Below, one piece after another: positions 31,257 through 48,397 of a stretch of DNA of 64,000 nt. The translations under genes and the position numbers were made by a program. The DNA comes from an uncultured Tateyamaria sp. (GTDB taxonomy: Bacteria; Pseudomonadota; Alphaproteobacteria; Rhodobacterales; Rhodobacteraceae). Position 1 is the stretch's first letter. Each line of letters opens with the position of its first letter. The stretch is from positions 62,001 to 126,000 of the forward strand of contig NZ_CANLAG010000005.1 of the NCBI RefSeq assembly GCF_947488715.1. The letters are read 5' to 3'. The notes beneath the pieces are model-generated. The model saw only the letters and a list, made by a program, of their open reading frames with translations. It had not been told where the DNA came from and searched no databases.

Positions 31257-31826
31257 TCACTTATGTCCGAACGCCGCGTTGGGCATCCAGTCGGGCGACC
31301 CTTTGCCCGCGCGCATGTGCAGGCACGCGGTGCCCGTGCGCTGGAAATACGTGATGTCGACCGGATACCATCCGGCCTGCGGCACCTCGACCTGTACGGC
31401 GCGCGTTTCAAAGCACTTTTGCCGCCCGTCGAAATACCCGACGGTCTGCCCGCCGACCTTGGCGTCGAGGCCGTCATTGGTCAGGAAGTCGATGTTGTAC
31501 GTGCCGGGCGCGTCGAACTTGACGTAGCCCGAAATGCCCGCCGCCACGTAGTGCGCGCGCTTGGATGTCAGGGTGGCGTCGCCGTCGCGCGTGTCGCGGT
31601 AATCAAGGCCTTTGAGCGCCGGTCCGGCCTTGGCTTTCTTGAGCGCGCGATTGGCCTGGTTGATGCTCTTGACGTCTGGCGGATAGGCGTATTTCACAGC
31701 CAGACCCGGCTTGAGCCCCGAAGGCTGCGGGTTGGCGGGTTTCAGTTTCAGCGGCGCGGCATAGGTTGCAGTGGCCAGCAAAACAGCTGTGGCGGCCATG
31801 GCGGCCGTCTTCAAAATCGTCATCAT
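31257..31826 (-). CDS. exported PA14-domain protein
   Basis: A 189-residue secreted protein. The signal peptide is about residues 1-23 (ending TYAAP). The C-terminal 110 residues are PA14-like: GISGYVKFDAPGTYNIDFLTNDG, then VGYFDGRQKCFET and QVEVPQAGWYPVDITYFQRTGTACLHM. PA14 domains bind carbohydrates. Two or three cysteines could form disulphides. It is transcribed alone. Confidence 0.85.
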   Translation of the reverse strand: MMTILKTAAMAATAVLLATATYAAPLKLKPANPQPSGLKPGLAVKYAYPPDVKSINQANRALKKAKAGPALKGLDYRDTRDGDATLTSKRAHYVAAGISGYVKFDAPGTYNIDFLTNDGLDAKVGGQTVGYFDGRQKCFETRAVQVEVPQAGWYPVDITYFQRTGTACLHMRAGKGSPDWMPNAAFGHK

Positions 31827-31939: not shown

Positions 31940-32419
31940 CTACCCGGCACGGTAGAAAAGATAGCGTTCCGGATCGACCGTGTCCGGCCCTTTGATCTGT
32001 TCCAGCCCAACGAGCGGCTGTTGCGACAGCACCAACCCACCCGGCACCATCAGCGCGGCGATCAGCGGGCTGAGGCGTCCGCCTTCCTCGACGTCTTTTT
32101 CCTTGACCCCATAGCCAAAGTCGTAGTGCGCCAGAGCCATCCGCCGGCCGTCACCAGCGAGCTGCTTCAGCATGTCCTCCGCCTCGCCCAGAAGAAAGTC
32201 CTGCTCGGGCGGAATGCAGCTGGGATGCGGCTTGAGCACGCGGTCAATGACCCAGATGCGACGGTTGGGGATCTCCTGACGCAGATGGTCATAGGTGCGC
32301 CCGTTTCCGAGTCCCATTTCCAGAACGTCGCCCTGCAGCGGGGCGATTAGATCAGCCGCCCAGTTGATGCCGTCGATTTGTGCGGTCAAACGGCGCCGCA
32401 TGGATTCCAGTCTGCTCAT
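31940..32419 (-). CDS. small class I SAM-dependent methyltransferase-like protein
   Basis: A 159-residue protein with the SAM-binding motif I DVLEMGLGNGRTYDHLR (about residues 31-47) and a following acidic residue in IWVIDRVLKPHPS. It resembles the short methyltransferase family that I recall as Methyltransf_17 (PF12692), whose members share GLGNGRTYxHL. It is the last gene of the seven-gene glycan-type operon; its ATG overlaps the deacetylase stop by 4 bp. A related gene (GLGNGRTYHHM) is at 50307-50804. The acceptor is unknown. Confidence 0.8.
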   Translation of the reverse strand: MSRLESMRRRLTAQIDGINWAADLIAPLQGDVLEMGLGNGRTYDHLRQEIPNRRIWVIDRVLKPHPSCIPPEQDFLLGEAEDMLKQLAGDGRRMALAHYDFGYGVKEKDVEEGGRLSPLIAALMVPGGLVLSQQPLVGLEQIKGPDTVDPERYLFYRAG

Positions 32420-33159
32420 TCTTCGTTCTCCAGTGCCCATGGCGTTGCGCCACCCAGCATCATTTCGTGCGTAAAACCTTCGACAAAAGACCAGATCGCG
32501 GGGGTGTGAACGAGGTGGTGCGTCAACAGCCCCAGCGGTTCCGCCGCGTCTTCGTCGCCACGGCATCGCGCGTTCAGATGCGCCGCGGTTTGCAGGATCA
32601 GGTGATCGGGATCCACCAGATCACGTGTGCCTTTCCAAAAGATCGGGTCGATATGGGTGTTGATCTGACGCACACCTTCGGTCGCAAGCTGCGCCGTGCG
32701 TGGGCCAAAGGTCGACAAGGTGGTGTAGCCCGCCCCGGCCAGCGCCTCGGTCACGGTTTCATTGATCCGGTTCCAGGGCGGGACAAACATGGGCCGGGCG
32801 CGGCCACCAAAGAGCGCGGTCATGCGGTCCAGACCCTGCGCCGCCTCTGCAACTGCGGATGGTCGCGGGGTTTGGAACTCGTTCTTTTTGCCCACACCCC
32901 CGCTGTGATCCGTATGGGACCAGCCGTGGACCACAGGTACAAAACACTTGGGCAAAGTGTCGGCCAGGGTCCGTGTCGCGGGTTCGGGAATGACGGCGAG
33001 GTGAACCAAAACCCCAACCGTTTCCGACAGTTGCGCCAATTGGTCGAGCTGCGGTGTCGGCTCAATCGCATCATCATCGCGCCACCACACCGGCACGGGT
33101 AAATCAGCGCGTCTACAGGCGCTCAGCGCTTCGCGCAGGGGGTGCCAATCAATTGTCAT
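32416..33159 (-). CDS. polysaccharide deacetylase-like protein
   Basis: A 247-residue NodB-type deacetylase homolog. The first motif has three Asp (WWRDDD, residues 28-30) and the metal-binding H-x3-H is HGWSH (His78 and His82). Further motifs are FVPPWNRI and LLTHHLVHT. There is no signal peptide, so it would act in the cytoplasm, unlike most chitin or peptidoglycan deacetylases. It starts inside the stop of the upstream glycosyltransferase gene (ATGA) and its own stop overlaps the methyltransferase start. Confidence 0.8.
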   Translation of the reverse strand: MTIDWHPLREALSACRRADLPVPVWWRDDDAIEPTPQLDQLAQLSETVGVLVHLAVIPEPATRTLADTLPKCFVPVVHGWSHTDHSGGVGKKNEFQTPRPSAVAEAAQGLDRMTALFGGRARPMFVPPWNRINETVTEALAGAGYTTLSTFGPRTAQLATEGVRQINTHIDPIFWKGTRDLVDPDHLILQTAAHLNARCRGDEDAAEPLGLLTHHLVHTPAIWSFVEGFTHEMMLGGATPWALENEE

Positions 33160-34286
33160 CTGTTGTGCCCTTGCAAGAGACGGTCAACGATTTCGACGGT
33201 TTGGGTCGCGCCATCCATGCCATCCGTGCGCGGTGGTCGCGCAGGCTGCGTGATCACGGTGCTCAGGGCTGTGATCAAGCCCTCCGCTGTCAGATCGCTT
33301 TGCGGTACAACGCCAATCGCGGGCAGGGCGGCCAGTGCTGCGGCGCGCAGGCCCTGTTCGACCTCTCCGCCATCGTCGAAAGGGATGAACACAGCCGGGA
33401 CGCCCGTTTGCAGGATGTCCATCGCGGTGTTGTAGCCGCACATCGAGACAGAGGCCGAAGCCCCCTGCATCAGCACGCGAAAGTCGGGCCGTGGCGCTTC
33501 GACCGCCATGTTGTCGGGCGCTGTTGCAGCAACCTGTGCAACCCTGTCCTGACCGCCGCCCACGATGCACCGCCAGCGCCAATGCGGCGTCTGCCGCGCC
33601 GCCGTCAGCGCGGTTTCAAACACAGCGTCGCCCACATTTCCGCCACCTGCGCTGACCAGTATTTCACCATGTGTCTTGGCGTCCTGACCGGGGGGCGGGG
33701 GGGCGACAAACCCGGTGTAGTGCAGAACGGATGCCATCCGCTCGGTTACGGGCCAGCTGCGGTCAAGCGGGACCAGATCGGCATCGGAATGCACCAGTAC
33801 CCCGTCGTAGAAATCCGCAACCAAAGTGTCCGCAAATGCGGCCTTGGACGGTTTGCTGGGCGGGGCGAGGATGTCCCGCACAGAGGCGAGAACCAGAGGG
33901 CGCGGATGCATGGTGTGGGCCTGCGCCAAAAGCTGTTGAAATTCGTCCCTTAAGATGCGGCGACCAAAGGGGAACAGTTCTGTGATCAGCACGTCCGGGG
34001 CGGCAGTGGTCAGCGCGCCCGTCAGAGCGGCCAGTCGCGTGTCCATATGTGCGGTGTCTACCAGCGCGCCGTTTTCATCCAGCAGCTTGGTAAAATCGAT
34101 GCCATTGGACCGGACCGGCGGCAATTGGATCACCTCAAGTCCCGTCGTGTCAAAATGCGGCACCGGGGTGCCGCCGCTGACAATGGTGACGCTGTGACCT
34201 CGGCCCGCAAACGCGCGGCCCAGCGTCAGCGCACGAGCAAGGTGCCCTGTGCCCAACAGATGTGTCACGACGATCATCACGTTCAT
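33156..34286 (-). CDS. MurG/GT28-like glycosyltransferase
   Basis: A 376-residue GT-B-fold protein. The N-terminus (VTHLLGTGHLARALTLGRAFAGRGH) has the glycine-rich H-x-x-x motif of MurG-like transferases and the C-terminal half has a sugar-nucleotide-type loop (SVSMCGYNTAMDILQTG) with a downstream FDDGGEVEQGLRA segment. It resembles the 37175-38398 protein (both have a C-G/M-GYNT element), so the two are paralogs. It is soluble, without a signal peptide. It is coupled to a histidine phosphatase upstream and a deacetylase downstream. Confidence 0.82.
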   Translation of the reverse strand: MNVMIVVTHLLGTGHLARALTLGRAFAGRGHSVTIVSGGTPVPHFDTTGLEVIQLPPVRSNGIDFTKLLDENGALVDTAHMDTRLAALTGALTTAAPDVLITELFPFGRRILRDEFQQLLAQAHTMHPRPLVLASVRDILAPPSKPSKAAFADTLVADFYDGVLVHSDADLVPLDRSWPVTERMASVLHYTGFVAPPPPGQDAKTHGEILVSAGGGNVGDAVFETALTAARQTPHWRWRCIVGGGQDRVAQVAATAPDNMAVEAPRPDFRVLMQGASASVSMCGYNTAMDILQTGVPAVFIPFDDGGEVEQGLRAAALAALPAIGVVPQSDLTAEGLITALSTVITQPARPPRTDGMDGATQTVEIVDRLLQGHNR

Positions 34287-34867
34287 CAGACACGGTCCTC
34301 CAACGGTACGGGCTGCGGTTCTGCGCGCAGGTCCTGACCTGTGACATGCAGGACGAACAACCTGTTCCGCTTGATCCGAAACGGCGCGGGGCCGTCAAAG
34401 TTCCAACCGCTGGCCATCGCCATCAGAACGCGCATGATCCCGATATGGCACACCGCAACGGTGTCCCCCTGCAACGTGGCGAGCCATGGCAACAGGCGGG
34501 CGCGCACGTCATCCGGGCTTTCCCCATCTGGCGGGCGGTAGTGCCATCCCCAGTGTTCGATGTCGCGAAATCCGGCATTCGGGTCGGCGCGCAAATCAGC
34601 GCCGTGTTGACCCTCCCACTGGCCCCAATCCATCTCGATCAGTGCAGGCTCTGGCTGTGCCGCCCGTCCGGCCACCAATGCCGCTGTCTCCAACGCGCGC
34701 GATAGCGGGCTGGCGACAACGGTGGCGTCTTGCCAGCCTGCGGGCAGGCATTTGGCACCCAGATCCGCGCGGGCGGCATCATCCAACGGAATATCCGTGC
34801 GCCCCTGAATACGACCCCCCCGGTTCCAGGGCGTATGCCCGTGGCGCAGCAATGCAATCCGGGTCAT
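34286..34867 (-). CDS. histidine phosphatase (phosphoglycerate-mutase-like) family protein
   Basis: A 193-residue enzyme with the RHG catalytic signature (LLRHGHTPWN, His9), a GRTDIPLD segment, and a second catalytic His in VCHIGIMRVL. It belongs to histidine-phosphatase clan 1. The gene lies between glycosyltransferase genes, so a sugar-phosphate substrate is the simplest proposal; similar placement is seen for alpha-ribazole-type or mannosyl-phosphate phosphatases. Its stop shares one base with the next start (TGATG). Confidence 0.86.
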   Translation of the reverse strand: MTRIALLRHGHTPWNRGGRIQGRTDIPLDDAARADLGAKCLPAGWQDATVVASPLSRALETAALVAGRAAQPEPALIEMDWGQWEGQHGADLRADPNAGFRDIEHWGWHYRPPDGESPDDVRARLLPWLATLQGDTVAVCHIGIMRVLMAMASGWNFDGPAPFRIKRNRLFVLHVTGQDLRAEPQPVPLEDRV

Positions 34868-35931
34868 GTCAGGCCTCTGAGTTCAGTGTCGATTGTGCGG
34901 GCGGCGTGGCCCAACAGGTGCCGCGCGCCGACGGTGTCGCGTGCAGCTTTGCCTGCCGCCCGTCGTGCGCCTTGGTCGCCCAGCAGGTTTGCCAGATGAT
35001 CCGCCATGGCCTGTGCGCCCGCGTTGACGTCAGATTGGGGGCCAACCACCACGTCACAAACGCCGGGCCGGTTTTGGGCGACCACCGGGACGCCTGCGGC
35101 CTGCGCTTCGAGGTAGGTCAGGCCAAAGGCTTCGTTCACGCCGGGCCAGAACAGGATCGACGCTTGTTTGTAGAGGTCTGCCAACGCGGCGCTATTCAAC
35201 TGCCCCAGCAGGCGCACCCGGTTGCCAAAGGGTGCCATCAGCGCCTCAACCTCATGGCGCGCCGTGCCGTCACCCGCAATGTCCAGCCGCCAATCCATCC
35301 CAGCGGGCAAAGTGCGGAGCGTCTCGGCAATCAGGCGGTAAGAGGCCAGCTTGTCCCCCTCGCGCATCATGCCGACACTCAACATGGGGCCGTCCAGCGT
35401 GCTGGCCTCCGGCAGCGCATCCTGTTGTAAAAATGGTGGCAAATGCCTGAGAACCTGTGCGGCAGGGGCATCCCGGCGCAAGGTCTCTGCGTCCCGGTGG
35501 GTCAGGTAGAATATCAGGGCGGCCGCGTCGCTTGCGTCCTCTGCGGCCTGCGCAAACTGCGCCCATGGGCCTTGCAGACGCTTGCGCGCGCGCGTGCTTT
35601 CGATCTGCACATAGGGCAGGGCCAGCGCGTCGCACACCGCAGGCCCGATCAGGTCCGGTGCCTTGTAGTAGTTGTGGTAGGTGACCCACACCCGCCAGGT
35701 CCGCGCCTGTGGTGTGGCCAGCAAGCGTGCCGTTTCCGCACGCGCCGCAGCCAATAGGGCATCCTGCGTTTCGGGCAGCCCAACACCGTCATACAACCGC
35801 AGTTCAGACGCCAGATCGACGGCGCGTCCCGTGGCCTGCATGGCAGCCATCAACGCCCGTGCCATAGTACGGTCACCAGACGGAACAGTATGGTTGGGGG
35901 CCTTGAGCGGCGCGTAGAACGCGACCGTCAT
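34864..35931 (-). CDS. glycosyltransferase family 4-like protein (first)
   Basis: A 355-residue GT-B glycosyltransferase. The C-terminal E-x7-E motif is visible in FWPGVNEAFGLTYLEAQAAGVPVVAQN, and a LRLLGQLNSAALADLYKQASI segment precedes it. The N-terminus (FYAPLKAPNHTVPSGDRTMARALM) is typical of a subgroup annotated glycosyltransferase group 1 in roseobacters. It overlaps its neighbours on both sides by 4 bp. Confidence 0.86.
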   Translation of the reverse strand: MTVAFYAPLKAPNHTVPSGDRTMARALMAAMQATGRAVDLASELRLYDGVGLPETQDALLAAARAETARLLATPQARTWRVWVTYHNYYKAPDLIGPAVCDALALPYVQIESTRARKRLQGPWAQFAQAAEDASDAAALIFYLTHRDAETLRRDAPAAQVLRHLPPFLQQDALPEASTLDGPMLSVGMMREGDKLASYRLIAETLRTLPAGMDWRLDIAGDGTARHEVEALMAPFGNRVRLLGQLNSAALADLYKQASILFWPGVNEAFGLTYLEAQAAGVPVVAQNRPGVCDVVVGPQSDVNAGAQAMADHLANLLGDQGARRAAGKAARDTVGARHLLGHAARTIDTELRGLT

Positions 35932-37178
35932 GCGTTTGGCCCCTTGTGTAAAAGCGGTTTCAGCAACCCGTTCAACTGGTTGATGCCGGGCTGCATCTGA
36001 AACCCGTCCCGCAGTCGAGCAAGGGCGGCGTCTGCCATGTCGGGGCCTTTGGCCGGTGTCAGAGCAAAATCCGCCATGTGGCGGGCGAGCGTGGCGGGGT
36101 CATCCGCGCTCAGAACACCGTGGACACCGGTGTCGATGAATTCCGGGATGGCAGAGACGGGCGTGGACAGGATTGGCAGCTTTTGACTGGCGGCCTCCAT
36201 CAGAACATTCGGCAGCCCGTCCCGATCCCCATCCTGCGCAATCCGGCTGGGCAGAACAAACAGGTCCGCTGCGCGCATCGCGGCGATGACCTCGGGTTGG
36301 TCACAAGCACCACGCCAGGTGATGCGGTCACCAATGCCCAGATCGACCGCCTGCTGTTTCAGCGTATCGCCCAAAGCGCCGCCACCAATATGGGTCCAGT
36401 GCCAGTTGATGTCCGGCGGCAGCAGCGCAAGTGCCGCGACCAGATTGTCAAAGCCCTTCTTTTCCACCAGACGCCCCACCGACACCATGGCAAAGGGGTC
36501 ATCAGCGGCGCGCATGGGCCGTTCGGGCGGGGCCGGGAAACGGTTCAGGTCAAGCCCGTGATAGATCAACTCCACCGGCGTTCCGGCAGACAACCCCTTG
36601 AGATGATCCGCCCCAAAGGCGGTGCAGGTGGCACCAAACGCGGCACCCACCTGGGCCGGGTCCAGCTTTTCCCGCAACTCCCATTCGGGCGACGTCCAGA
36701 TATCCTTGGCATGGGCGGAAAAGGACCAGGGCATGCTGCGCAGCATAGCGGTGTAGCGCGCAACAGACGCTGGCGTATGTAGGAAATGCGCATAGAGCGC
36801 TTGCGTGTCCGAGGGCAATTCGCGGGCCATCACACAGGCTTGGCCAAACCGGCGGATGCGGTTCCTGTTTCGGTCGCGCATCAGATCGCGCAGGAAATGC
36901 CGTGCGGCTGTCCAGAACCCGCGCCGCGTCATGGCGGCGGCAATGCTGCGCAGCACGCGCACAGGTTCGTCGTGCAGGTATTCGGGCAAATAGTGGACCT
37001 GCGCGCCCAACTGGTCATGCAGGGGATGTGTCTTTTTGTCGGTCGGATGGCGCAGCGACCAGATGGCGAAATCAAGTCCGGCGCGTTCCAGCGCCACAAG
37101 TTCCTGGGCGATAAAGGTCTCTGACAGGCGCGGCCAGCCTTTGACCACGACCGCGAGGCGGGGTGCTTGTGCTGTCAT
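35928..37178 (-). CDS. glycosyltransferase family 4-like protein (second)
   Basis: A 416-residue GT4-type enzyme. The start MTAQAPRLAVVVKGWPRLSETF shows the common KGWPRLSETFIAQE motif of GT4 proteins in exopolysaccharide clusters. The N-terminal half also has ELHLxx-like YAHFLHTPASVARY and FSAHAKDIW (a His-Ala-Lys-Asp motif). The C-terminal half has VSVGRLVEKKGFDNLV and the donor loop DRDGLPNVLMEAASQKLP. The start was chosen from the ATGA overlap with the upstream gene; a 73-residue upstream extension is antisense-like sequence. Confidence 0.87.
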   Translation of the reverse strand: MTAQAPRLAVVVKGWPRLSETFIAQELVALERAGLDFAIWSLRHPTDKKTHPLHDQLGAQVHYLPEYLHDEPVRVLRSIAAAMTRRGFWTAARHFLRDLMRDRNRNRIRRFGQACVMARELPSDTQALYAHFLHTPASVARYTAMLRSMPWSFSAHAKDIWTSPEWELREKLDPAQVGAAFGATCTAFGADHLKGLSAGTPVELIYHGLDLNRFPAPPERPMRAADDPFAMVSVGRLVEKKGFDNLVAALALLPPDINWHWTHIGGGALGDTLKQQAVDLGIGDRITWRGACDQPEVIAAMRAADLFVLPSRIAQDGDRDGLPNVLMEAASQKLPILSTPVSAIPEFIDTGVHGVLSADDPATLARHMADFALTPAKGPDMADAALARLRDGFQMQPGINQLNGLLKPLLHKGPNA

Positions 37179-38398
37179 TCGGCGGCGTTGCTCAGGCTCT
37201 GATCCATCAGCAGGCGCGCGCGTTGGTTCACCACGTCCAAACCGTCCAGTAGACCGTTTGCACCCGCCTCGGACGGGCGTTTCTGATGTGGCAGTCCACG
37301 GATGGCTGCGATCATCGCCTCGGGTGTCAGCCCGTCGCGGAACTGATCGAGGTTGCGCACCAGACCCAGCTCTTCGGCACGGTTGGCACGGATCCATTGC
37401 TCAAGCCGCGGCTTGGTCCGTGGCACGATCACTGCGCGCTGGTCAAAAGACAGCAACTCGCAAAAGGTGTTGTAGCCCCCCATACAGATCACGCCCTGCG
37501 CCCCGGCAAAAAGCGACTCGATCCGGCTGTCGAACCCTGTGGCCGTGACGCGGCCGTTCAACGACGCCACGCGGGCCTCAAAGGCGTCGCGCGTGTCACC
37601 GGACAGGAATGGGCCATAGACCAGCACCGCATGCGGCGCGAGGTCGGGGTCGGTTTCGTAGGCTTTGAGCACCAGATCGACCATCGCCTCGCCATCGCCG
37701 CCGCCACCGGGGGTTACAAGGATGTATGGCGTGTCTGGCACGTCTGCCGGGTCGATGATGCTGCGCCGCAAATAGCCGGTCCAGACGGTACGCCCGCGCG
37801 CCGACGGCGACAGCGGTAGCCCTTCGGTCGGGTCATAGACGGACCGCATGCCATAGACCCAAAGTTCGTCGTAAAATGCTTCGGTCGCCTCAATCGCGCC
37901 TTTGCGTGCCCACTCGGTCGCCAGCACTTCGGCCTCGTCCAGCACGTCACGCAGACCCAGCACGATGCGCGTGTGGCCCTTGCGGCTGAGCTGTTCCAGG
38001 GTCGGCAACAGCTCTCCGCGAAAGCCGGTGGGTTCCTTGTCGACGATCAGCAGGTCGGGTTCGTATTGCGTGACAGTCGATTCAATCAGCCCCGCACGCA
38101 GGGCGGTTGTCGCCTCTATGTCCATGCCGGAGTTCTGGCTGACATAGCTGCCATCGGCCAGTTTCTTGACGCCGGGCAAACGCACGTGATCGACCGTATC
38201 GGGAAAGGTGAACCGCCCCGCCACCGGGCTGCCGGTCAGGATGATCGCCGACCCGACCGTGCGCGACTCTGTCAGCGCAGAGGCCAGCGCCCGGCTGCGG
38301 CGCAGGTGGCCCAGGCCAAATGTATCGTGGCTGTACAGGACAACGCGGCGGGGGCGTGTTCCGGCACAATCCGGTGTCCCAGTTACGGAGTGGCCCAT
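37175..38398 (-). CDS. MurG-like glycosyltransferase, first gene of the operon
   Basis: A 407-residue GT-B protein with the start VVLYSHDTFGLGHLRRSRALASAL (glycine/histidine-rich acceptor loop), a VTPGGGGDGEAMVDLVLKAYE donor-domain start, and a C-terminal VICMGGYNTFCELLSFD element followed by VPRTKPRLEQWIRANRAEELG, which are typical of MurG-like transferases that use UDP- or GDP-sugars. It is the most upstream gene of the operon and is divergent from the MscS gene across 289 bp. It is related to the 33156-34286 protein. Confidence 0.84.
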   Translation of the reverse strand: MGHSVTGTPDCAGTRPRRVVLYSHDTFGLGHLRRSRALASALTESRTVGSAIILTGSPVAGRFTFPDTVDHVRLPGVKKLADGSYVSQNSGMDIEATTALRAGLIESTVTQYEPDLLIVDKEPTGFRGELLPTLEQLSRKGHTRIVLGLRDVLDEAEVLATEWARKGAIEATEAFYDELWVYGMRSVYDPTEGLPLSPSARGRTVWTGYLRRSIIDPADVPDTPYILVTPGGGGDGEAMVDLVLKAYETDPDLAPHAVLVYGPFLSGDTRDAFEARVASLNGRVTATGFDSRIESLFAGAQGVICMGGYNTFCELLSFDQRAVIVPRTKPRLEQWIRANRAEELGLVRNLDQFRDGLTPEAMIAAIRGLPHQKRPSEAGANGLLDGLDVVNQRARLLMDQSLSNAAE

Positions 38399-38687: not shown

Positions 38688-41042
38688 ATGGGTGTACAAG
38701 CCGTGAAAAGACATTGGGTGTCCGGGCTTTGGGCCCTCATTTTGACCTGTATGCTGCTGGTGGCGGGTCCTCTGGCGGCCCAAGGGCTGACCAGCCTGTT
38801 GCCCGCACCCACGCAAAGCACACCCGAAACCGACGTCTCTGACCTGATGCGCTCGGCTGCGGAAAATGGTGTCAGCGTCATCGTGATCGACAGCGATGGC
38901 CGGGTCCTGACCCAGGTAGGCGATACATCAGCGTCAACACCATCCACTGATCCGGGGTCGGGTTCGACCCTCATGGCGATCCAGGATGATGCCGTGGCGT
39001 TTCGGTCCGCATTGGTGGACAGGTTCCTGAACCTGCCCGTGGCCTTCAACGAGGTGCTGTATATCCTGCGCGCGACCAGCCCGGATGGCACCATCTTTGC
39101 CTTTGTCGAAGTGCTGATCTACAGCTTGTTGCTCTTTGCCGCCGGGATGCTGTTCGAGGCACAGGTGTTTGGCAAACGCATGGTCAAAAACTTTGTCGTG
39201 GCCCGCATCCGTGAAACGCCCGAAGGGTATGGGCAAAAGATGCCATTTCTCGTCTTTCGCTTTGTTATGGGGGTGGTCGGCATCGTCGTGTCCATGGCGG
39301 TGGCCTATGTGCTGGGCTTTATCATCTTTGGCCCGCTCGAGGACCCGGCACTGCAATTCACCGCATCGCTGATCAACGCCGGCTATTTCATGGTCCGCGC
39401 AACCTCAAGCGTATGGCGCATGATCCTGTCGCCCTACCTGTCGCAATACCGCATCCCCATGTTCTCGGATCAGGACGCCCGCCGGCTGCACCTGTGGCTC
39501 AGCGGCGTAGCGGCCATGGGGTTCTTTGCCATCCTGTTCGGCGTGTGGATCGAGGAACTTGGCCTCAATCACGAAGTCTATGTGTTCCTCTTTTCGCTGC
39601 TCAGCTTTGGCGTGATGACCATCAACATCGCGCTTGTCTGGGCCAACAACGCGGCCATCACCAATGCCATTCTGAACGGCAAACGGGCGCGGGATGCCAC
39701 GTGGATCCTGCGGACGCTGTCGCGGATCTGGGCGCCGATCGCCGTCGCGTATTTCCTGTTCGCCTGGGGGGAACAAAGCTATCATCTGGTGCTGGGTGAT
39801 CCGCTTGGTGTGCCGCTGTTGGCGGCCGCCTGGGCGATCCTGACAGTGATCATTGTTGTCTACGGCGTGATCAACTTTTTCATCGAACGCAGTTTTGAGC
39901 GCGCGCGTTACCTGCGCGAGCGCAATGAACTGTCCGGCATGGCCCCGAATGCCACGGCGCGATCCGCCGACATGACCACCGGCCCGCGCATCATGACCTT
40001 CGAGGGTCTGGCGCAGCGCATCGCGGGCATCCTCGCCTTTGTGGCTGGCACCTATGCCTTTGTCGCAATCTGGCGGCCCGACACCAACATGATGGGCGAA
40101 ACCTGGACCGACCGCGCGCTGGACGTGATTGTCATCCTGTTCATCGGCTATATCGCCTACAACGCCTTCCGTATCTGGATCGACAACAAGATCCTCGAAG
40201 AACAAGGCGATGTGGTCGAAGCGGAACTGGGCGATGAAGGCGGCGGATCATCCGCGTCGCGTCTGGCTACGCTGCTGCCGCTGTTCCGCAACTTTGTCCT
40301 GCTGGTCATTATCCTGACGATCCTGCTGATCGTGCTGATGGAACTGGGCATCAACGTGGGCCCGCTTTTTGCCGGTGCGGGCATCGTCGGTGTCGCGGTT
40401 GGTTTCGGCAGTCAAAGCCTCGTGCGGGATATCTTTTCCGGTGCGTTCTTCCTCTTCGACGATGCGTTCCGTAAGGGTGAGTATATCGACGTCGGCGGGG
40501 TCAAGGGCACGGTCGAAAACATCAGCGTGCGGTCGTTTCAACTGCGCCACCACCTTGGCGCGCTGCACACCATCCCCTTTGGCGAAATCCAAGTGCTGAC
40601 CAACTATTCCCGCGACTGGGTGATCATGAAACTGCCCCTGCGCGTGACCTATGACACCGACGTGGAAAAGGTGCGCAAGCTGATCAAGAACCTCGGTGTT
40701 GCCCTGCTCGACGATCCGGTGATCGGCGACAACTTTATCCAGCCGCTGAAATCGCAGGGCGTGATCGAAATGCAGGACAGCGCCATGATCATCCGGGTCA
40801 AATTCATGACCAAACCGGGCGACCAATGGCTGGTGCGCAAAAAGGTCTACGAGGAAATCCGCGCGCTGTTCGAACGCGAGGGGATCAAGTTCGCGCACCG
40901 CGAGGTGACCGTGCGTCTGGCCGATGGGCAAAAACCCGACGAACTCACGGACGAGGACCGCAAGGCCATCACCGCCGCCGCACAGGCCTCAATCGAGGAA
41001 GAATTGCTGGAAGATGCCGCCGATTTCGGCGACGACCGCTGA
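38688..41042 (+). CDS. mechanosensitive channel (MscS family), large type
   Basis: A 784-residue inner-membrane channel. A signal sequence (to about residue 32) and an N-terminal periplasmic region (to about 115) are followed by about 11 membrane segments. The MscS core starts near residue 565 (AGIVGVAVGFGSQSLVRDIFSGAFFLF, pore helix) and continues with the beta domain (VGGVKGTVENISVRSFQLRHH and TIPFGEIQVLTNYSRDW). The cytoplasmic C-terminal part (RVTYDTDVEKVRKLIKNLG) completes it. It releases solutes under hypo-osmotic stress. The ATG at 38688 is one candidate start; a GTG at 38703 is the alternative. Confidence 0.92.
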   Translation: MGVQAVKRHWVSGLWALILTCMLLVAGPLAAQGLTSLLPAPTQSTPETDVSDLMRSAAENGVSVIVIDSDGRVLTQVGDTSASTPSTDPGSGSTLMAIQDDAVAFRSALVDRFLNLPVAFNEVLYILRATSPDGTIFAFVEVLIYSLLLFAAGMLFEAQVFGKRMVKNFVVARIRETPEGYGQKMPFLVFRFVMGVVGIVVSMAVAYVLGFIIFGPLEDPALQFTASLINAGYFMVRATSSVWRMILSPYLSQYRIPMFSDQDARRLHLWLSGVAAMGFFAILFGVWIEELGLNHEVYVFLFSLLSFGVMTINIALVWANNAAITNAILNGKRARDATWILRTLSRIWAPIAVAYFLFAWGEQSYHLVLGDPLGVPLLAAAWAILTVIIVVYGVINFFIERSFERARYLRERNELSGMAPNATARSADMTTGPRIMTFEGLAQRIAGILAFVAGTYAFVAIWRPDTNMMGETWTDRALDVIVILFIGYIAYNAFRIWIDNKILEEQGDVVEAELGDEGGGSSASRLATLLPLFRNFVLLVIILTILLIVLMELGINVGPLFAGAGIVGVAVGFGSQSLVRDIFSGAFFLFDDAFRKGEYIDVGGVKGTVENISVRSFQLRHHLGALHTIPFGEIQVLTNYSRDWVIMKLPLRVTYDTDVEKVRKLIKNLGVALLDDPVIGDNFIQPLKSQGVIEMQDSAMIIRVKFMTKPGDQWLVRKKVYEEIRALFEREGIKFAHREVTVRLADGQKPDELTDEDRKAITAAAQASIEEELLEDAADFGDDR

Positions 41043-43202: not shown

Positions 43203-44279
43203 TCAGGTGACCGCGTGATGCGCCACCTTGTCCGGGTCCCAGACAATGCCAAGGCCTGGACCGCGCGCGGTGACGCGGCCTTGGTCCAGCGCCAACGGCG
43301 CGGCCATCAACCCGCCCGCAACATCCAGCCACTCAAGGTATTGTGCGCCGCGCGTGGCGGCCAGCGCGTGGGCGGAGGCTTCGATGAACAGATGGCTCGA
43401 GACGGGCACGGCTGCGGCGTCGGCCATGGCCGCTGCCTGCACCCAGCCCGTTATGCCGCCGATCTTGATCATGTCGGGCATTGCGTAATCGGTTGTGCCG
43501 GCGGCCAGCGCACGGGCTGCATCCGCCGCGTGCCACCAGTTTTCCCCCGATTGCAGCGGTGTGGACACCGCCGCCCGCACGCTCTGGTAGGCGGCGACAT
43601 TCTCCGCCGCTACGGGTTCCTCAACCCAGAGCAGGTTAAGGCCCGCATCCTCAATGGCGCGGATTCGGCGGATCGCCTCCGGTGCGTCAAAGGCCTGATT
43701 GTAATCCAGCATCAGATCGCGGTCCGGCCCTATCATGTCGCGCACCACGCGCAGGGCGGCGACATCCTCCTGCACTGAAGGAAAGCCCAGCTTGACCTTG
43801 ATCGCCTCGAAACCCCGGTCCAGCGATGCCGCAATCAGCTGCTCGTCGCGGCCCGGCACGAATACGCCTTGGCTGTCATAACAGGGCAGGGCACGCGGGC
43901 TGGCCCCCAACAGCGCGCAGACGGGTTGACCCAACGCCTTGCCTTGAGCGTCCCACAGCGCCAGATCGATCCCCGCCAGTGCCATGCCGACCAATCCCTG
44001 CCGACCCAAAAGGCGAAACTGCGTCTCTGTTTGGCGCGCAAAGTCGAGCGGTAGCGCAGATGCGCCTTTCAGCGTCTCACCCAACCCATCCAGAAACGTC
44101 ACCAGCGGCGCCAGCATCAGCGGCGTGTAGGCAAAGATATACCCCGTTCCGGTCACGCCCGCGTCAGTCTCTAAATCCACCAGCACCAAGGGGGCCGCTG
44201 GGATCACGGCCTGCGCCGTGCTGATCGGTTGGGCCAGCGGCGCCATCACGGCGCGCGCCTTGAGGCCTGCGATCCGCAT
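43203..44279 (-). CDS. mandelate-racemase-like enolase-superfamily enzyme
   Basis: A 358-residue enolase-superfamily enzyme closely following mandelate racemase. The acid/base residues are present: K161-x-K163, metal ligands D192 (LMLDYNQ), E220 (WVEEP) and E246 (SGENWW), the D269-H296 dyad (AMPDMIKIGG and SSHLF), and E316 in YLEWLD. The full set and its spacing match the mandelate-racemase subgroup, as does the flow SSHLFIEASAHALAAT. The substrate is probably a 2-hydroxy acid or acid sugar. It is co-oriented with and 1 bp overlapping the ABC permease upstream, so the transported compound may be its substrate or precursor. Confidence 0.9.
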   Translation of the reverse strand: MRIAGLKARAVMAPLAQPISTAQAVIPAAPLVLVDLETDAGVTGTGYIFAYTPLMLAPLVTFLDGLGETLKGASALPLDFARQTETQFRLLGRQGLVGMALAGIDLALWDAQGKALGQPVCALLGASPRALPCYDSQGVFVPGRDEQLIAASLDRGFEAIKVKLGFPSVQEDVAALRVVRDMIGPDRDLMLDYNQAFDAPEAIRRIRAIEDAGLNLLWVEEPVAAENVAAYQSVRAAVSTPLQSGENWWHAADAARALAAGTTDYAMPDMIKIGGITGWVQAAAMADAAAVPVSSHLFIEASAHALAATRGAQYLEWLDVAGGLMAAPLALDQGRVTARGPGLGIVWDPDKVAHHAVT

Positions 44280-45433
44280 CAGCCTTTGTAGGGGTCAAGG
44301 CTGTCGCGCAGCCCGTCGCCGAGGAAGTTGAATGCCAGCACCACGATGATGATCGGCAGCATCGGGATCGCCGTCCACGGATAGATCTCGATGCTCGCCA
44401 GGTTCTGCGCGTCGTTCAGCATCACGCCCCAGGACACCGCAGGCGCGCGCAGGCCAAGGCCAAGGAAGGACAGCGCCGTCTCGCCCAGGATCATCGCCGG
44501 GATCGACAGGGTGGCCGATGCGATCAGGTGCGACATGAAGTTGGGCAGCAGGTGCCGCCGGATCACCCGCCCCGGTTTGGCCCCCATCATCTCTGCCGCG
44601 CGCACATATTCCTCCTCTCTTAACGAGAGGAACTTACTTCGGACCGCACGGGCGAGGCCGGGCCAATCCAAGAGCCCGAGGATGATACTGATTATGAAAA
44701 ACACCGACACCGGCCCCCAATTCGACGGCACCGCCGCCGACAGGGCCAGCCACAGTGGCAGCTCGGGCAAGGACCGCAAGATTTCGATTGCGCGGTTCAC
44801 GACCCAGTCGACCCAACCGCCGAAATAGCCCGCGATGGCGCCGAAGCCGATGCCCAGGATGAACGACACGGTGATCCCGATCAGACCCACGGTCAGCGAC
44901 AGCTGCGCCCCGTAGGAAATCCGCGAAAACACGTCTCGGCCCAGACGGTCAGACCCAAAGATAAAGATCGTCGCCCCTTCGGGTGCACAAAACAGGTGCC
45001 GTTCGGTCGGGATAAAGCCAAACAGGTGGTACTGCGTCCGCTTGCAAAAGAACTGCAGCGGCATCGGACGGGTCTCATCGGTGGTATAGGTCCACCGGTA
45101 ATTCTCAAGGTCGGCCACCGCCTCGGTTGGATAGACAAAGGGGCCGATGTAGTCGCCTTCGTGCCAGAAATGGATCGCTTGCGGCGGGTGGTACAGGTAA
45201 TCCGCGCTGCGCTCATTCGGCGTGTAGGGCGAAAAGAACCCGGCAAAGGGGATCGCCATGTAAGCCAGGAACAGGAAGATCCCCGACAACAGTCCCAACC
45301 GGTGGCGTCGGAACTTGCGCCAGACCAACAGCCAGTTGGGGGCGTCCATGTCCGAACGGTCCAGCGCGGACAGATCGACATTGGGATCATAGGGGGCGTC
45401 ATCAATGTAACGGCCGTCGGGCAGGGTGCTCAT
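44279..45433 (-). CDS. ABC transporter permease, DppC/OppC type
   Basis: A 384-residue membrane permease. An N-terminal cytoplasmic part (about 1-45) and a first helix are followed by a long periplasmic segment (about 75-165, containing a LFCAPEG and a SDRLGRDVFSRISYG element, the latter the OppC loop). The permease core has the EAA-like motif (AEMMGAKPGRVIRRHLLPN). The large periplasmic insert is unusual compared with DppC. The start MSTLPDGRY (ATG at 45433, AAGGA upstream) was preferred over an in-frame extension to 45475. Confidence 0.9.
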   Translation of the reverse strand: MSTLPDGRYIDDAPYDPNVDLSALDRSDMDAPNWLLVWRKFRRHRLGLLSGIFLFLAYMAIPFAGFFSPYTPNERSADYLYHPPQAIHFWHEGDYIGPFVYPTEAVADLENYRWTYTTDETRPMPLQFFCKRTQYHLFGFIPTERHLFCAPEGATIFIFGSDRLGRDVFSRISYGAQLSLTVGLIGITVSFILGIGFGAIAGYFGGWVDWVVNRAIEILRSLPELPLWLALSAAVPSNWGPVSVFFIISIILGLLDWPGLARAVRSKFLSLREEEYVRAAEMMGAKPGRVIRRHLLPNFMSHLIASATLSIPAMILGETALSFLGLGLRAPAVSWGVMLNDAQNLASIEIYPWTAIPMLPIIIVVLAFNFLGDGLRDSLDPYKG

Positions 45434-45437
45434 ATCG

Positions 45438-46466
45438 TTATCCTTCCCGCGCGCCATAGCGGATGCGCGGATCAAGCAGCACCAGCAAGAGGTCTGAAAT
45501 CATTGTCCCAATCAACGTCAACAGCGCCACGAACATCAGCACGAAGGCGGCCAGGAACTGATCCTGCGACTTGAGCGCCGTCAACAGCGCCGGCCCGATG
45601 GTCTGAAGGCCCAGCACGACCGACACCAGAACCGATCCCGACACCATCGCGGGCAGCAAGTTGCCGATGTCCGCGACAAAGGGGTTGAACGCCATGCGCA
45701 ACGGATACTTGGTCAACAGCCGCGAAGGTGCGAGACCCTTGGCCATCGCCGTCTCCACGTAGGGTTTGCTGAGCTCGTCCAGCATGTTGGCGCGCAGACG
45801 TTGCATCATGCCTGCAGCCCCGGATGTCCCGATCACAAAGGTCGGCACGATCAGGTGCACAAGGATCGACTGCACCTTGCCCAGCGACATCGGCTCGCCC
45901 TCGTATTCCGGGGCCATCAGGCCACCAATCGGCAGGCCAAGGTATTTGTGCCCGTAGTAGAACAGGATCAGCGCAAGCAGAAAGTTCGGCGTGGCGAGAC
46001 CGAGATAGCCAATAAAGGCAGTGGTGTAGTCGACCCACGTGGCCGACCGCGCCGCGGCAAGCACACCGAGGGGCAGCGCCACGAGATAGACAAACAGAAC
46101 CGCCGCCAGGTTGACCAGCACCGTCAGCCACAGCGCGTCGCCCACGATCTCGGCCACGGGCGCATCAAATTCGAATGACCAACCGAAATCGCCCTGCAAC
46201 AGACCCGAAAACCCCTGCGGGCCGGGGATCACACCGACCCAGATCAGGTATTGCTGATAGAGCGGGCGGTCGAGTGCGTATTCCTTGCGCAGGAACTCAG
46301 CCTTGGCGACACCTTCAGCCTGACCGGTGGCGCGCAATTCGGCAATCTGGTTGGACAGGTAATCGCCGGGCGGCAGGTTGATGATGACAAAGATCAGCAT
46401 CGACACCACGATCAGCGTCAGGACCATCGTCAGCAGACGATAGGCCGCATAGCGAATGAACATCAT
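45438..46466 (-). CDS. ABC transporter permease, DppB/OppB type
   Basis: A 342-residue inner-membrane permease with about six helices. N-terminal FIRYAAYRLLTMVLTLIVVS is the OppB-type signal-anchor, and the EAA-like loop is MLDELSKPYVETAMAKGLAPSRLL. It partners the DppC-type permease 4 bp downstream. The start overlaps the binding-protein stop (ATGA). The membrane complex belongs to the peptide/nickel/oligosaccharide importer family. Confidence 0.92.
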   Translation of the reverse strand: MMFIRYAAYRLLTMVLTLIVVSMLIFVIINLPPGDYLSNQIAELRATGQAEGVAKAEFLRKEYALDRPLYQQYLIWVGVIPGPQGFSGLLQGDFGWSFEFDAPVAEIVGDALWLTVLVNLAAVLFVYLVALPLGVLAAARSATWVDYTTAFIGYLGLATPNFLLALILFYYGHKYLGLPIGGLMAPEYEGEPMSLGKVQSILVHLIVPTFVIGTSGAAGMMQRLRANMLDELSKPYVETAMAKGLAPSRLLTKYPLRMAFNPFVADIGNLLPAMVSGSVLVSVVLGLQTIGPALLTALKSQDQFLAAFVLMFVALLTLIGTMISDLLLVLLDPRIRYGAREG

Positions 46467-48397
46467 TCCGTCACCTGCGCCAATTCTTCATCGGCAAAAT
46501 AGAATTCATCCACCCGGTGTACGCCGAAATGCGCGCCGGGATCCCAGGCCCATTTGCCGAACTCCGGCACGTTGCGCAAACGGTCTGACACAACGACGGG
46601 CTGCGGGGCCTCGGATAGGATGCCAATGCCGAATTGCTGATCGGCATGTATTGCCAACATTTCGCGCCACACCCGCGCCCGGTCATAGGGGTCTGGCTTG
46701 GCCTCCCACTCGGCGGCCAGTGCGAGCAGGCGCTGGGCGTCGGGCATGTCCACAGGCTCACCTGCCTGTCCATGGGTCTGATAATATTGCCCCCACTTGG
46801 GCCAGGCGAAAAACACCTGATCCGTCGGCGCGAGGTAGTTGGGGGGCGTGTAGGGCTGCGGGATACCGTTGTCCCAGCCGAACCAGACCGCGGCCATGGT
46901 CACACCGGAAAACACACGGTTGCGCAGGATGTCGCGATCCAGAGGGCGCATGATGAGCTTGATGCCGAGATCGCGCCACGTGTCGGTGATAATGGCCAGC
47001 GCGTTTTCGACCTCTTGCCGTTCGCCGGCCGTCTCGATCACAAATTCCATCGGTCGCCCGTCCGGCAACAGCCGGATGCCAGAGCCATCACGCGTGGTCA
47101 GGCCCATCTCGTCCAGCATCAGGTTGGCTGTGTCCAGATCATAGAGCGCCCATTTGGTCAGGTTCTCGGATTCAAAGAACGGACTGGCCGCAAGGGCGGT
47201 CATGTTCCCTTCCTTGCCCAGCCCGAAATACAGCGCGCGGTTGATCATACGCCGGTCGATGCCCATCGACAGCGCCCGCCGGAACCGCGGATCGCGGATC
47301 ACCGCACGCCAGGTCGGGTCGGCAAAGTTCAGGTTGGGGTAAATGGCAATCTGGCTCGCCGCACTGTTGGCCCACAGGTAGGTGCGGTAGGGCGCGCCGT
47401 CCGCTTCGCCCTTTTTCAGGATCGACACATCGCGAAAATCGAGGCCACGCGCCTGCAAATCCGCCTCACCCGCGTTTGCCTTGGCCGCGACGAGGCCCGA
47501 GCCCACGATGTGCATTTCGACCACGTCGATATAGGGCAAATGCGTGCCGCGCGCATCGACACGGTGGAAGTAGGGGTTGCGCACAAAGAGCTGGCGCGAC
47601 TGACCGCCCGTGCTGGCAGGCATCCATGGCTGCAAGGTCGGCAACTCGTGGTTGTCGAACTTGTACATGTTGTCGAGCTTGTTGTGCAGCGGCGCCCAAC
47701 CCCGCACCCGCTTGCTGTCGATCATCTCTTCCATTTCTTCCATCGTGTTAAAATCCACGTGGAATTGGCGGAGGTAGTGGGCGGGCCGGTAGATGAACGG
47801 CGGGCTGGCCTGTGCAAGTGACTGCAGGAACATCGGGTTCTGGCGTGGGAACTCGACCACAACCGTGTGTGCGTCGGGGAACGTCATGGTGCCGATTTCG
47901 TCACCCGCGCGCATGATCTCGGGCGGGCCGTTGGGGCTTAGCTCGCTGTTTTGGGCGACATGTTCCCACCAATAGCGGAAATCCTCAGAGGTAAAGGGCG
48001 CGCCATCCGACCAGCGGTGACCGGGTCGCAGGTGCAGTGTGAATTTGCGCCCGTCCTCAACGTCGTAGTCGCGCAAAATGTCGGCACGCAGCTGGTAGTT
48101 TTCGTCGTAGCCCACCAGCCGGGCATAACCGTAAACCACCATCTGCCGCACGTCCTTGGACCGTGTGACCATCGTGCGCAGCGTGCCGCCCTGTTTGCCA
48201 AACGTCCGCCCCTTGGCCTCGAGATCGACGATCAGCGGGGTGTCGGGGATACGGTCGGGGGCCGGGTCCATCTGTTTCTTGGCAACCTCAGCCGCCCAGA
48301 AACCGCTTTCTTCTACTACGATTTCGGCACTGGCGGGCAGGGCGATCAGCCCGGCGGCCAGGCACGTTGCAAACATACGGGTCAGTCGGTCAAACAT
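46463..48397 (-). CDS. ABC transporter substrate-binding protein, family 5
   Basis: A 644-residue periplasmic binding protein. The signal peptide covers about 1-24 (ending PASA). The mature protein has the family-5 (SBP_bac_5) features: YDVEDGRKFTLHLRPGHRWSDGAPFTSEDFRYWW near residues 115-150, the KANAGEADLQARGLD segment, and the RRALSMGIDRRMINRALYFG block. It is larger than DppA (about 535), like the oligosaccharide- and opine-type members. It is encoded between the ATPase and permease genes, overlapping both. Confidence 0.92.
   Translation of the reverse strand: MFDRLTRMFATCLAAGLIALPASAEIVVEESGFWAAEVAKKQMDPAPDRIPDTPLIVDLEAKGRTFGKQGGTLRTMVTRSKDVRQMVVYGYARLVGYDENYQLRADILRDYDVEDGRKFTLHLRPGHRWSDGAPFTSEDFRYWWEHVAQNSELSPNGPPEIMRAGDEIGTMTFPDAHTVVVEFPRQNPMFLQSLAQASPPFIYRPAHYLRQFHVDFNTMEEMEEMIDSKRVRGWAPLHNKLDNMYKFDNHELPTLQPWMPASTGGQSRQLFVRNPYFHRVDARGTHLPYIDVVEMHIVGSGLVAAKANAGEADLQARGLDFRDVSILKKGEADGAPYRTYLWANSAASQIAIYPNLNFADPTWRAVIRDPRFRRALSMGIDRRMINRALYFGLGKEGNMTALAASPFFESENLTKWALYDLDTANLMLDEMGLTTRDGSGIRLLPDGRPMEFVIETAGERQEVENALAIITDTWRDLGIKLIMRPLDRDILRNRVFSGVTMAAVWFGWDNGIPQPYTPPNYLAPTDQVFFAWPKWGQYYQTHGQAGEPVDMPDAQRLLALAAEWEAKPDPYDRARVWREMLAIHADQQFGIGILSEAPQPVVVSDRLRNVPEFGKWAWDPGAHFGVHRVDEFYFADEELAQVTE

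Follow-up and report, generated by a model that had tools for sequence, protein, structure and literature searches.

A seven-gene operon of an uncultured Tateyamaria as a possible biosynthetic half of a conserved alphaproteobacterial glycan system

Two of the closest known counterparts of the locus reported here come from rhizobia. In Sinorhizobium meliloti, the msbA2 operon (SMb21188-21191) likewise places glycosyltransferases beside a gene for an MsbA-like protein and, in the available text of two papers, is tied to an unknown polysaccharide (PMC3687685, PMC12239276). We rejected msbA2 as the same locus on position: msbA2 lies at 938 kb of pSymB, and the S. meliloti locus of the present system lies at 822-845 kb. 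SMb20804 and SMb20805 are named in the available text of PMC5539429 as affecting capsule and peptide sensitivity. On plasmid pA of Rhizobium etli CIAT 652 (RHECIAT_PA0000036-0000045), an Opp block and cyaAa precede two genes annotated as redA and redB, followed by a MurG2 homologue, an MsbA-like gene, and a cNMP-binding gene. For redA and redB we found gene names only and no description in the open-access literature; a redA match in the available text of PMC6200981 is an author's name and not the gene. SPH1118 of Sphingomonas sp. A1 (7ver) is, in the available text of PMC9314435, a pectin-binding protein serving pectin chemotaxis and assimilation.

The window, that is, the whole 64,000-nucleotide stretch of DNA that was analysed, carries on its minus strand (31940-38398) seven genes that all start with ATG (7/7) and overlap at successive junctions by 4, 4, 4, 1, 4, and 4 bp, in agreement with the overlaps of 1 or 4 bases described in an earlier, sequence-only reading. 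The operon and its neighbours are as follows.

38688..41042, plus strand: MscS-family mechanosensitive channel, divergent neighbour of the operon in the Rhodobacteraceae (such a neighbour in 67/80 named loci)
37175..38398, minus strand: MurG1, MurG-like GT-B glycosyltransferase, 407 aa, PF04101, homologue of R. etli CIAT 652 redA
35928..37178, minus strand: GT4a, GT4 glycosyltransferase, 416 aa, PF13692/PF00534, homologue of R. etli CIAT 652 redB
34864..35931, minus strand: GT4b, GT4 glycosyltransferase, 355 aa, PF13692/PF00534
34286..34867, minus strand: HP, histidine phosphatase, 193 aa, PF00300 (124 bits)
33156..34286, minus strand: MurG2, MurG/UGT-like glycosyltransferase, 376 aa, PF04101
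32416..33159, minus strand: DAC, predicted CE4/NodB-fold deacetylase (AlphaFold2 model and motifs, the latter intact), without signal peptide, 247 aa
31940..32419, minus strand: MT, PF12692 SAM methyltransferase, homologue of 3iht, 159 aa (233.8 bits)
31257..31826, minus strand: PA14-domain protein whose start resembles a signal peptide, 113 bp beyond MT (in 5/80 named loci)

No 19-residue segment of the seven proteins exceeds 1.6 in Kyte-Doolittle hydrophobicity (maximum, 1.57), in keeping with the earlier view that the enzymes look cytoplasmic and that DAC lacks a signal peptide. MT lies above the curated cut-off of its family (Methyltransf_17, 27 bits), and the two MurG-like proteins score 34.4 and 24.5 bits with PF04101 (cut-off, 22). 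GT4b has weak solved relatives among the matches listed (26.5-41.6 bits, C-terminal half only), including D-inositol-3-phosphate glycosyltransferase, a BshA-type synthase, and a PIM mannosyltransferase, and the nearest solved relatives of HP are alpha-ribazole phosphatase (52 bits) and, lower, glucosyl-3-phosphoglycerate phosphatase (46 bits).

DAC scores 14.2 bits with Polysacc_deac_1 (cut-off, 23.1) and 14.9 with DUF2334 (cut-off, 26). The fold matches of its AlphaFold2 model (pLDDT, 96.1) are CE4/NodB deacetylases, and its RDDD, HGxxH, and PPWNR motifs are invariant in 36/36 aligned sequences, the window copy included. Given the modelled CE4 fold and the conserved Asp/His metal-site motifs, DAC is a predicted CE4/NodB deacetylase. 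It shares this fold with ArnD (TMq, 0.63), but its identity to the CE4 matches listed, ArnD among them, is 10-16%, and it stays below the Pfam cut-offs. In the mycothiol and bacillithiol pathways, the deacetylase acting after the GT4 enzyme has the LmbE fold (MshB/BshB); since DAC matches CE4 structures and not LmbE, and so has the wrong fold, a pathway of that type was rejected.

Next, we compared the locus across genomes. The operon was present in 37 of 40 fetched stretches (5 from Rhodobacteraceae and 35 from other families, picked from the search hits for variety and length of contigs, not at random), covering the Rhodobacteraceae and 24 other alphaproteobacterial families; L063, L081, and L083, with a deacetylase homologue alone, were left out of the 37. 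The full order MurG1-GT4a-GT4b-HP-MurG2-DAC was found in 19 of the 24 other families, and this six-gene order was intact in 30/37 operon-bearing loci and 69/80 named loci, six Microvirga loci among the latter having no HP match at the threshold used. Such an order is far beyond chance. The sequence-only reading had named as evidence against itself that the genes do not co-occur elsewhere or that they belong to a standard capsule or LPS locus; they co-occur as a unit, and the larger locus around them is not a standard one. It had also named an initiating sugar-phosphate transferase, a flippase, and a polymerase as missing; in keeping with this, the annotation of the 25-37 kb surrounding the operon lists none of the three, and no Wzx, Wzy, Wza, or Wzc, in three relatives with incomplete plasmid gene tables (R. 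etli, Ruegeria TM1040, and Azospirillum lipoferum). The reading also knew of no described system with this composition, and we found no description of the system in the open-access literature, the R. etli record supplying the names redA and redB.

The operon also has regular company. Outside the Rhodobacteraceae it mostly adjoins an Opp-type importer and often an MsbA-like protein, and the Opp block follows DAC directly, or one small gene later, in 31/37 loci, counts of outer genes being lowered because contig ends truncate L066 and L099 and the stretches stop at about 20 kb. In A. lipoferum 4B, a single run reads MT-ABC-OppDF-A-B-C-MurG1-GT4a-GT4b-HP-MurG2-DAC. The R. etli region differs in that its stretch yielded no GT4b, HP, or DAC. 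In S. meliloti, GT4b and DAC are separate from the rest of the operon, moving together as they do in genome G495, and HP was not found within 30 kb.

Across 149 Rhodobacteraceae genomes, DAC was found in 32, the MsbA-like gene (E, 1e-60) in 31, and both in 29 (Fisher test, P = 3e-25, kinship ignored); OppA (E below 1e-240) was found in 35, of which 31 also had DAC (P = 2e-26, kinship likewise ignored). G003, G054, and G124 carry DAC and had no MsbA-like match at E 1e-60. PF12692 exceeded its cut-off in 30/149 genomes, every one of them DAC-positive, and in 0/14 control genomes; it was thus present in 30/32 DAC genomes, G077 and G134 being without it. MurG1 and GT4a were found in 12/12 chosen genomes with DAC, an MsbA-like gene, or a strong OppA, four of the twelve being without DAC, and in 0/9 chosen genomes with none of these three. 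Four genomes keep MurG1-GT4a-GT4b-HP-MurG2 without DAC and without PF12692 over its cut-off, two of which (G004 and G122) had no MsbA-like match.

In the window, the importer lies at 44279-50159, on the operon's strand and 5.9 kb from it, with these genes in and around it.

50307..50804, plus strand: second PF12692 methyltransferase, divergent from OppDF
48390..50159, minus strand: OppDF, ABC ATPase of the importer with two fused domains; by eye, its P-loops and signatures are intact
46463..48397, minus strand: OppA, binding protein (SBP_bac_5) whose nearest characterised relative of solved structure is SPH1118 (pectin binding)
45438..46466, minus strand: OppB, permease, importer subunit
44279..45457, minus strand: OppC, permease (start at 45457 or 45433)
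43203..44279, minus strand: enolase-superfamily (mandelate racemase-like) gene, sharing 1 bp with oppC

The earlier statement that no transporter is present thus stands for the seven genes and fails for their neighbourhood. OppA is by homology closer to saccharide binders of the SPH1118 kind than to known peptide binders: SPH1118 aligns at 195 bits over 596 residues, whereas entries named as known peptide binders reach at most 39 bits, and a family profile gives 335 bits against 56-81. The best solved relative of OppA is 5ipw (264 bits), an entry that its depositors named a putative oligopeptide-binding protein. In this near full-length homologue of SPH1118, the stacking Trp594 is kept as Trp in 28/29 OppA sequences and Arg466 as Arg in 25/29, but Arg438 is Arg in 3/29, Arg496 is Pro in 29/29, and Arg57 is unaligned, so the ligand of OppA need not be a galacturonide. 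In Ruegeria TM1040, a CoA transferase follows oppC in place of the enolase-superfamily gene.

The second partner, the MsbA-like protein, has an exporter transmembrane fold (PF00664; AlphaFold2 pLDDT, 87.2; Foldseek matches), and MsbA is its best or second-best named family, far below cut-off. Its model has the fold of MsbA-type and cyclic-glucan (7zo8) ABC exporters but differs from them in lacking the full ATPase motifs and in an extra stretch of about 260-280 residues in the nucleotide-binding domain. Among 43 sequences, the P-loop GxxxxGK[ST] was found in 2, SGGQ in 0, and the Walker B DE in 2, and none (0/43) had the P-loop, LSGGQ signature, and Walker B Asp-Glu together. Among 31 Alphaproteobacteria with an MsbA-like match, G430, G558, G566, and G680 align over the C-terminal part only. 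We found no description of this ATPase-degenerate family in the open-access literature. The window's genome has two homologues, one beside TamA/TamB-like genes and neither adjoining the operon, so the link between them and the operon in this genome rests on the other families. With importer and MsbA-like parts linked elsewhere and present in the window or its genome, the earlier idea of a product finished inside the cell without transporters is not supported.

A cNMP-binding domain is attached or adjacent to the MsbA-like protein. The canonical cassette pattern matched in 28/39 loci; it missed L068, L120, L124, and L156, as well as seven domain-fused Rhodobacteraceae copies (L141, L142, L143, L145, L146, L147, and L150), which include both copies of the window's genome. 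The separate cNMP-binding gene of Rhodobacteraceae genome G101 (L152) matched the pattern, and the inspected fused Rhodobacteraceae copies keep only Gly-Glu/Asp and Arg. Because the pattern is degenerate in these fused copies, the case for cAMP gating of the MsbA-like protein in this clade is weak.

As a whole, these observations are best explained, tentatively, by a glycan system conserved in Alphaproteobacteria, of which the seven genes would form the biosynthetic half; on this reading, which we put somewhat below an even chance, the operon may make a short acidic oligosaccharide or glycoconjugate with amino sugar that passes the inner membrane, a related oligosaccharide being taken up. MurG1, GT4a, GT4b, and MurG2 would assemble, on the cytoplasmic side, a short oligosaccharide or glycoconjugate of defined structure; HP would take a phosphate off the acceptor of the GT4b step or off its product, DAC would free an amino group on an N-acetylated sugar, and MT would methylate it. 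A nucleotide-sugar dehydrogenase stands beside the operon in 21/80 named loci and is absent from the 64-kb window; the sole one of the 21 classified (L064) is TviB-like (487 bits; cut-off, 592) and closest to UDP-GlcNAc 6-dehydrogenase. As such an enzyme is encoded next to the operon in about one in four named relatives, a uronate or N-acetyl-hexosaminuronate is probably part of the product. The MsbA-like protein, acting as a regulated, non-canonical carrier or scaffold, would serve the passage of the product across the inner membrane, and the Opp importer would take up an acidic oligosaccharide, either the product or a breakdown piece (recapture) or an outside relative. The overlap of oppC with the enolase-superfamily gene would suit the breakdown of an imported sugar acid no less well than recapture. 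Quite unlikely, in our estimate, is the stricter version in which envelope-glycan export across the inner membrane is independent of the exporter's own ATP hydrolysis, the MsbA fold with its dead nucleotide-binding domain and cNMP domain serving as a gated channel or scaffold while the ATP-driven importer recaptures the same acidic amino-sugar oligosaccharide.

The foremost alternative, unlikely but credible, is a membrane glycolipid pathway in which a lipid is the acceptor of the glycosyltransferases, the MsbA-like protein flips the resulting glycolipid, which is retained in the envelope, and Opp is a separate, co-selected scavenging or recycling system. The lack of an annotated polymerase or initiating transferase in the three relatives, the MsbA kinship (though far below cut-off), the frequent MscS neighbour, and the presence among the DAC fold matches of ArnD, which acts on a lipid-linked sugar, are consistent with it, but the operon has no lipid-modifying gene, and this scheme leaves unexplained why OppA keeps such close company with MurG1 and GT4a, also in genomes that have lost DAC. 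We consider it rather unlikely that Opp instead imports an outside acidic oligosaccharide that the operon rebuilds, glycosylates, dephosphorylates, and deacetylates, with the MsbA-like protein as a regulator. The saccharide-binder resemblance of OppA, the coupling of the enolase-superfamily gene to oppC, and the missing ATPase motifs of the MsbA-like protein speak for it. Against it, the four glycosyltransferases and the nucleotide-sugar dehydrogenase are enzymes of biosynthesis, and the 50 other loci compared contain no homologue of the single polysaccharide lyase noticed (S. meliloti).

By analogy with mycothiol, whose logic is a GT4 enzyme, a phosphatase, and a deacetylase, the product could be a small secreted amino-sugar natural product (a pseudo-oligosaccharide, metallophore, or signal) that is made, exported, and re-imported. 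The joint movement of GT4b and DAC, the weak kinship of GT4b to inositol-phosphate and malate glycosyltransferases, and the matches of OppDF to nickel and opine importers, among many others, would suit such a product; the CE4 fold of DAC, not that of MshB/BshB, and an operon without a condensing enzyme or ligase make it very unlikely. Least likely of all is a partly seen standard capsule, exopolysaccharide, or LPS locus, to which the EpsE profile score of GT4a (111 bits; cut-off, 400) and an unspecified R. etli ABC permease gene (RHECIAT_PA0000031, 2.6 kb beyond the cNMP-binding gene) might point and which we set aside because its defining genes are not annotated in the three relatives, the small gene set recurring moreover in 24 other families and S. 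meliloti msbA2 lying at another position on pSymB.

The seven genes thus make up one half of a bigger set, found again across many Alphaproteobacteria with an importer, which probably takes up sugars, and an exporter-like protein whose ATP engine looks broken. If it is true that the MsbA-like protein moves a glycan without an ATPase of its own, this would be a new transport principle. The shared locus gives PF12692, redA/redB, and the ATPase-degenerate MsbA-like family a context and thus a testable role. Moreover, Sinorhizobium, Rhizobium, and Azospirillum carry parts of the system on plasmids, and such parts are also present in Microvirga and many roseobacters, including Ruegeria pomeroyi, so that this role can be tested in genetically tractable strains.

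The sequence-only reading had described seven overlapping minus-strand glycan genes of stated kinds with cytoplasmic-looking enzymes, and both points were borne out. The open reading frames (ORFs) overlap by 4, 4, 4, 1, 4, and 4 bases, and Pfam assigned two GT28-like (MurG-type) glycosyltransferases (MurG1 and MurG2), two GT4 glycosyltransferases (GT4a and GT4b), one histidine phosphatase (HP), and one PF12692 methyltransferase (MT). The deacetylase (DAC) scored under the Pfam cut-offs; its AlphaFold2 model, built on a 36-sequence alignment (pLDDT 96.1, pTM 0.92), had CE4 deacetylases, including ArnD, as structural matches, and its RDDD, HGxxH, and PPWNR motifs were unchanged in all 36 sequences. 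Hydropathy showed no membrane segment or signal peptide in any of the seven proteins. A search of the window with the proteins of an Opp-type importer (fused ATPase OppDF, binding protein OppA, permeases OppB and OppC) located a matching Opp block. The features are as follows.

30294-30668, minus strand, RbsD/FucU-family gene, a short distance downstream of the operon
31257-31826, minus strand, PA14-domain protein with a signal-peptide-like start, after MT
31940-38398, minus strand, glycan operon of seven ORFs
43203-44279, minus strand, enolase-superfamily gene, overlapping oppC by 1 base
44279-50159, minus strand, Opp block
50307-50804, divergent from the Opp block, second PF12692 methyltransferase

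In Ruegeria TM1040, a CoA transferase occupies the place of the enolase-superfamily gene beside oppC. Elsewhere in the Tateyamaria assembly are two genes for MsbA-like proteins, of divergent ABC-exporter fold, both with a cNMP-binding domain fused on; one lies directly before Omp85 (TamA-like) and TamB genes (L142:8069-11005).

Next, we looked at how the operon recurs. DAC homologues, counting those outside the operon, occur in 32 of 149 Rhodobacteraceae and 84 of 289 alphaproteobacterial genomes. We compared 40 stretches, each up to 20 kb around DAC and picked for variety (5 from Rhodobacteraceae, 35 from other families). DAC was inside the operon in 37 and stood alone in three (L063, L081, and L083); the genomes of the last two carry MurG1, GT4a, and the MsbA-like gene at another place (L256 and L257). 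Across the 37 loci, GT4b and MurG2 were found in all, GT4a in 35, HP in 34, and MurG1 in 33. Counts for the outer genes are low estimates because the stretches were truncated, either near 20 kb or by a contig boundary: OppDF 33, OppC 32, OppA 28, OppB 28, X171 (a small gene without a Pfam match) 25, the MsbA-like gene 23, a cNMP-binding gene 22, and PF12692 16. The order MurG1-GT4a-GT4b-HP-MurG2-DAC was unbroken in 30 of the 37, and operon-bearing loci came from 24 families beyond Rhodobacteraceae, 19 of them with the full six-gene order. The seven-gene operon is part of a larger gene set.

Outside Rhodobacteraceae, the usual layout has the cNMP-binding and MsbA-like genes on one strand, with a methyltransferase beyond where seen, and divergently the six operon genes followed by OppDF-OppA-OppB-OppC. 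Azospirillum lipoferum 4B plasmid p4 carries twelve genes in a single run; in Rhizobium etli CIAT 652 pA, the annotation names MurG1 redA and GT4a redB, and cyaAa adjoins the Opp block. Further examples are Sinorhizobium meliloti 1021 (pSymB, 822-845 kb), Microvirga species, and a Mesorhizobium MAG. Roseobacters such as Ruegeria pomeroyi and Ruegeria TM1040 have an MscS channel gene divergent from the operon, and TM1040 has its Opp block two genes away. Among the 80 named loci, which are mostly roseobacters because they are the best 80 of 586 confirmed, MscS was divergent in 67, PF12692 lay directly 3' of DAC in 65, and a PA14-domain gene occurred in 5. In the rhodobacteraceal genome G054 (locus L259), a single run contains MscS together with the six-gene operon and the Opp block, joining the two layouts. 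A PA14-protein homologue lies within one Opp block (L075:12979-13578), and an MBL-fold hydrolase gene was seen in 13 of 51 loci. Three rhizobial loci (L123:2432-8793, L120, and L156) have nearby a DUF3095 protein, a nucleotide-sugar dehydrogenase, and a cyclase-like protein annotated adenylate cyclase in R. etli. In the S. meliloti 1021 locus (L123), the MsbA-like gene exceeds its counterpart in strain 2011 by 1 base and gives two overlapping matches; it is whole in other strains, and the split could reflect either a sequencing error or a genuine disruption of the gene.

We then assessed co-occurrence in 149 Rhodobacteraceae genomes, each from a different genus. DAC was present in 32, the MsbA-like gene in 31, and both in 29 (DAC alone in G003, G054, and G124; MsbA-like alone in G083 and G101). 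OppA (E < 1e-240) was present in 35, 31 of them with DAC; DAC lacked OppA in the fragmented assembly G119, and OppA lacked DAC in G004, G083, G101, and G122. Both associations were significant when kinship was ignored (Fisher, P = 3e-25 for MsbA-like and P = 2e-26 for OppA). PF12692 scored above cut-off in 30 genomes, every one DAC-positive (G077 and G134 are the two DAC genomes that lack it). None of 14 control genomes had it, and a smaller set gave 11/11 for genomes with the system and 0/4 for those without. MurG1 and GT4a were present in 12 of 21 chosen genomes. These twelve are the ones that carry DAC, strong OppA, or the MsbA-like gene; the remaining nine carry none of the three, and in three of those nine a weaker OppA relative was present. 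The four genomes with OppA but no DAC (loci L251, L253, L254, and L255 of G004, G101, G122, and G083, respectively) keep MurG1-GT4a-GT4b-HP-MurG2; PF12692 was above cut-off in none, and the MsbA-like match was missing in two. The transferases and Opp are therefore the steadiest part of the system, with DAC and MT optional. Across 398 genomes of the phylum, the MsbA-like family occurred in 32: 31 from Alphaproteobacteria, of which 4 match through the C-terminal part alone, plus a single fragment from a different class.

The MsbA-like model had an exporter fold (pLDDT 87.2); its nucleotide-binding domain contains an additional segment of about 260 to 280 residues, most of it predicted well. Of the 43 sequences aligned, 2 kept the P-loop GxxxxGK[ST], 16 its lysine, 2 the Walker B Asp-Glu, and 0 SGGQ; none had all three motifs together. 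These losses make an ordinary cycle of ATP hydrolysis unlikely. In the L067 protein (residues ~470-733), ENLLFG-like motifs recur ahead of this additional segment, inside it, and at its end, a pattern resembling a partial duplication of the domain. The cNMP cassette pattern was found in 28 of 39 loci and was absent from both Tateyamaria copies, which retain only parts.

A nucleotide-sugar dehydrogenase gene adjoined the operon in 21 of the best 80 of 586 confirmed loci; none was seen adjoining it in the window. The single example classified (L064) was closest to the UDP-GlcNAc C-6 dehydrogenase TviB, with a score of 487 bits that fell short of the 592-bit cut-off, and R. etli and S. meliloti have another dehydrogenase of the superfamily nearby. 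These genes suggest an acidic amino-sugar. The nearest solved chain to the window OppA was 5ipw (264 bits), whose deposition names it a putative oligopeptide-binding protein and in which no ligand was seen; SPH1118 followed (195), then an alpha-galactoside binder (80), a chitin-oligosaccharide binder (43), and the remaining peptide-binder-named entries (≤39). The OppA family profile ranked them likewise (SPH1118 335 bits versus 56 to 81 for peptide- or dipeptide-named entries). SPH1118 is described as binding pectin and galacturonides via arginines and Trp594 (PMC9314435). At the SPH1118 positions in 29 aligned OppA sequences, Trp594 is Trp in 28, Arg466 is Arg in 25, Arg438 is Arg in 3, and Arg496 is Pro in all 29; Asn53 is Arg or Lys in all 29, Asp483 is Trp in 23, and Arg57 was unaligned. 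We read OppA as a putative saccharide binder with a basic and aromatic cleft and a ligand other than that of SPH1118.

The individual parts are of known kinds. We found the combination, most of all an ATPase-degenerate exporter-fold protein tied to the gene set, undescribed in the open-access full-text literature searched. We infer from the genes what each enzyme does chemically, what is made, which way it is transported, and that cAMP exerts control. The strongest rival is a glycolipid remaining in the envelope. The coupling of an enolase-superfamily gene to oppC speaks against recapture of the product by the importer; such a gene would fit a catabolic role. Our best reading is a dedicated pathway in which the operon enzymes would make a short acidic amino-sugar oligosaccharide or glycoconjugate, the product would move across the inner membrane, and the Opp importer would take up a related oligosaccharide.
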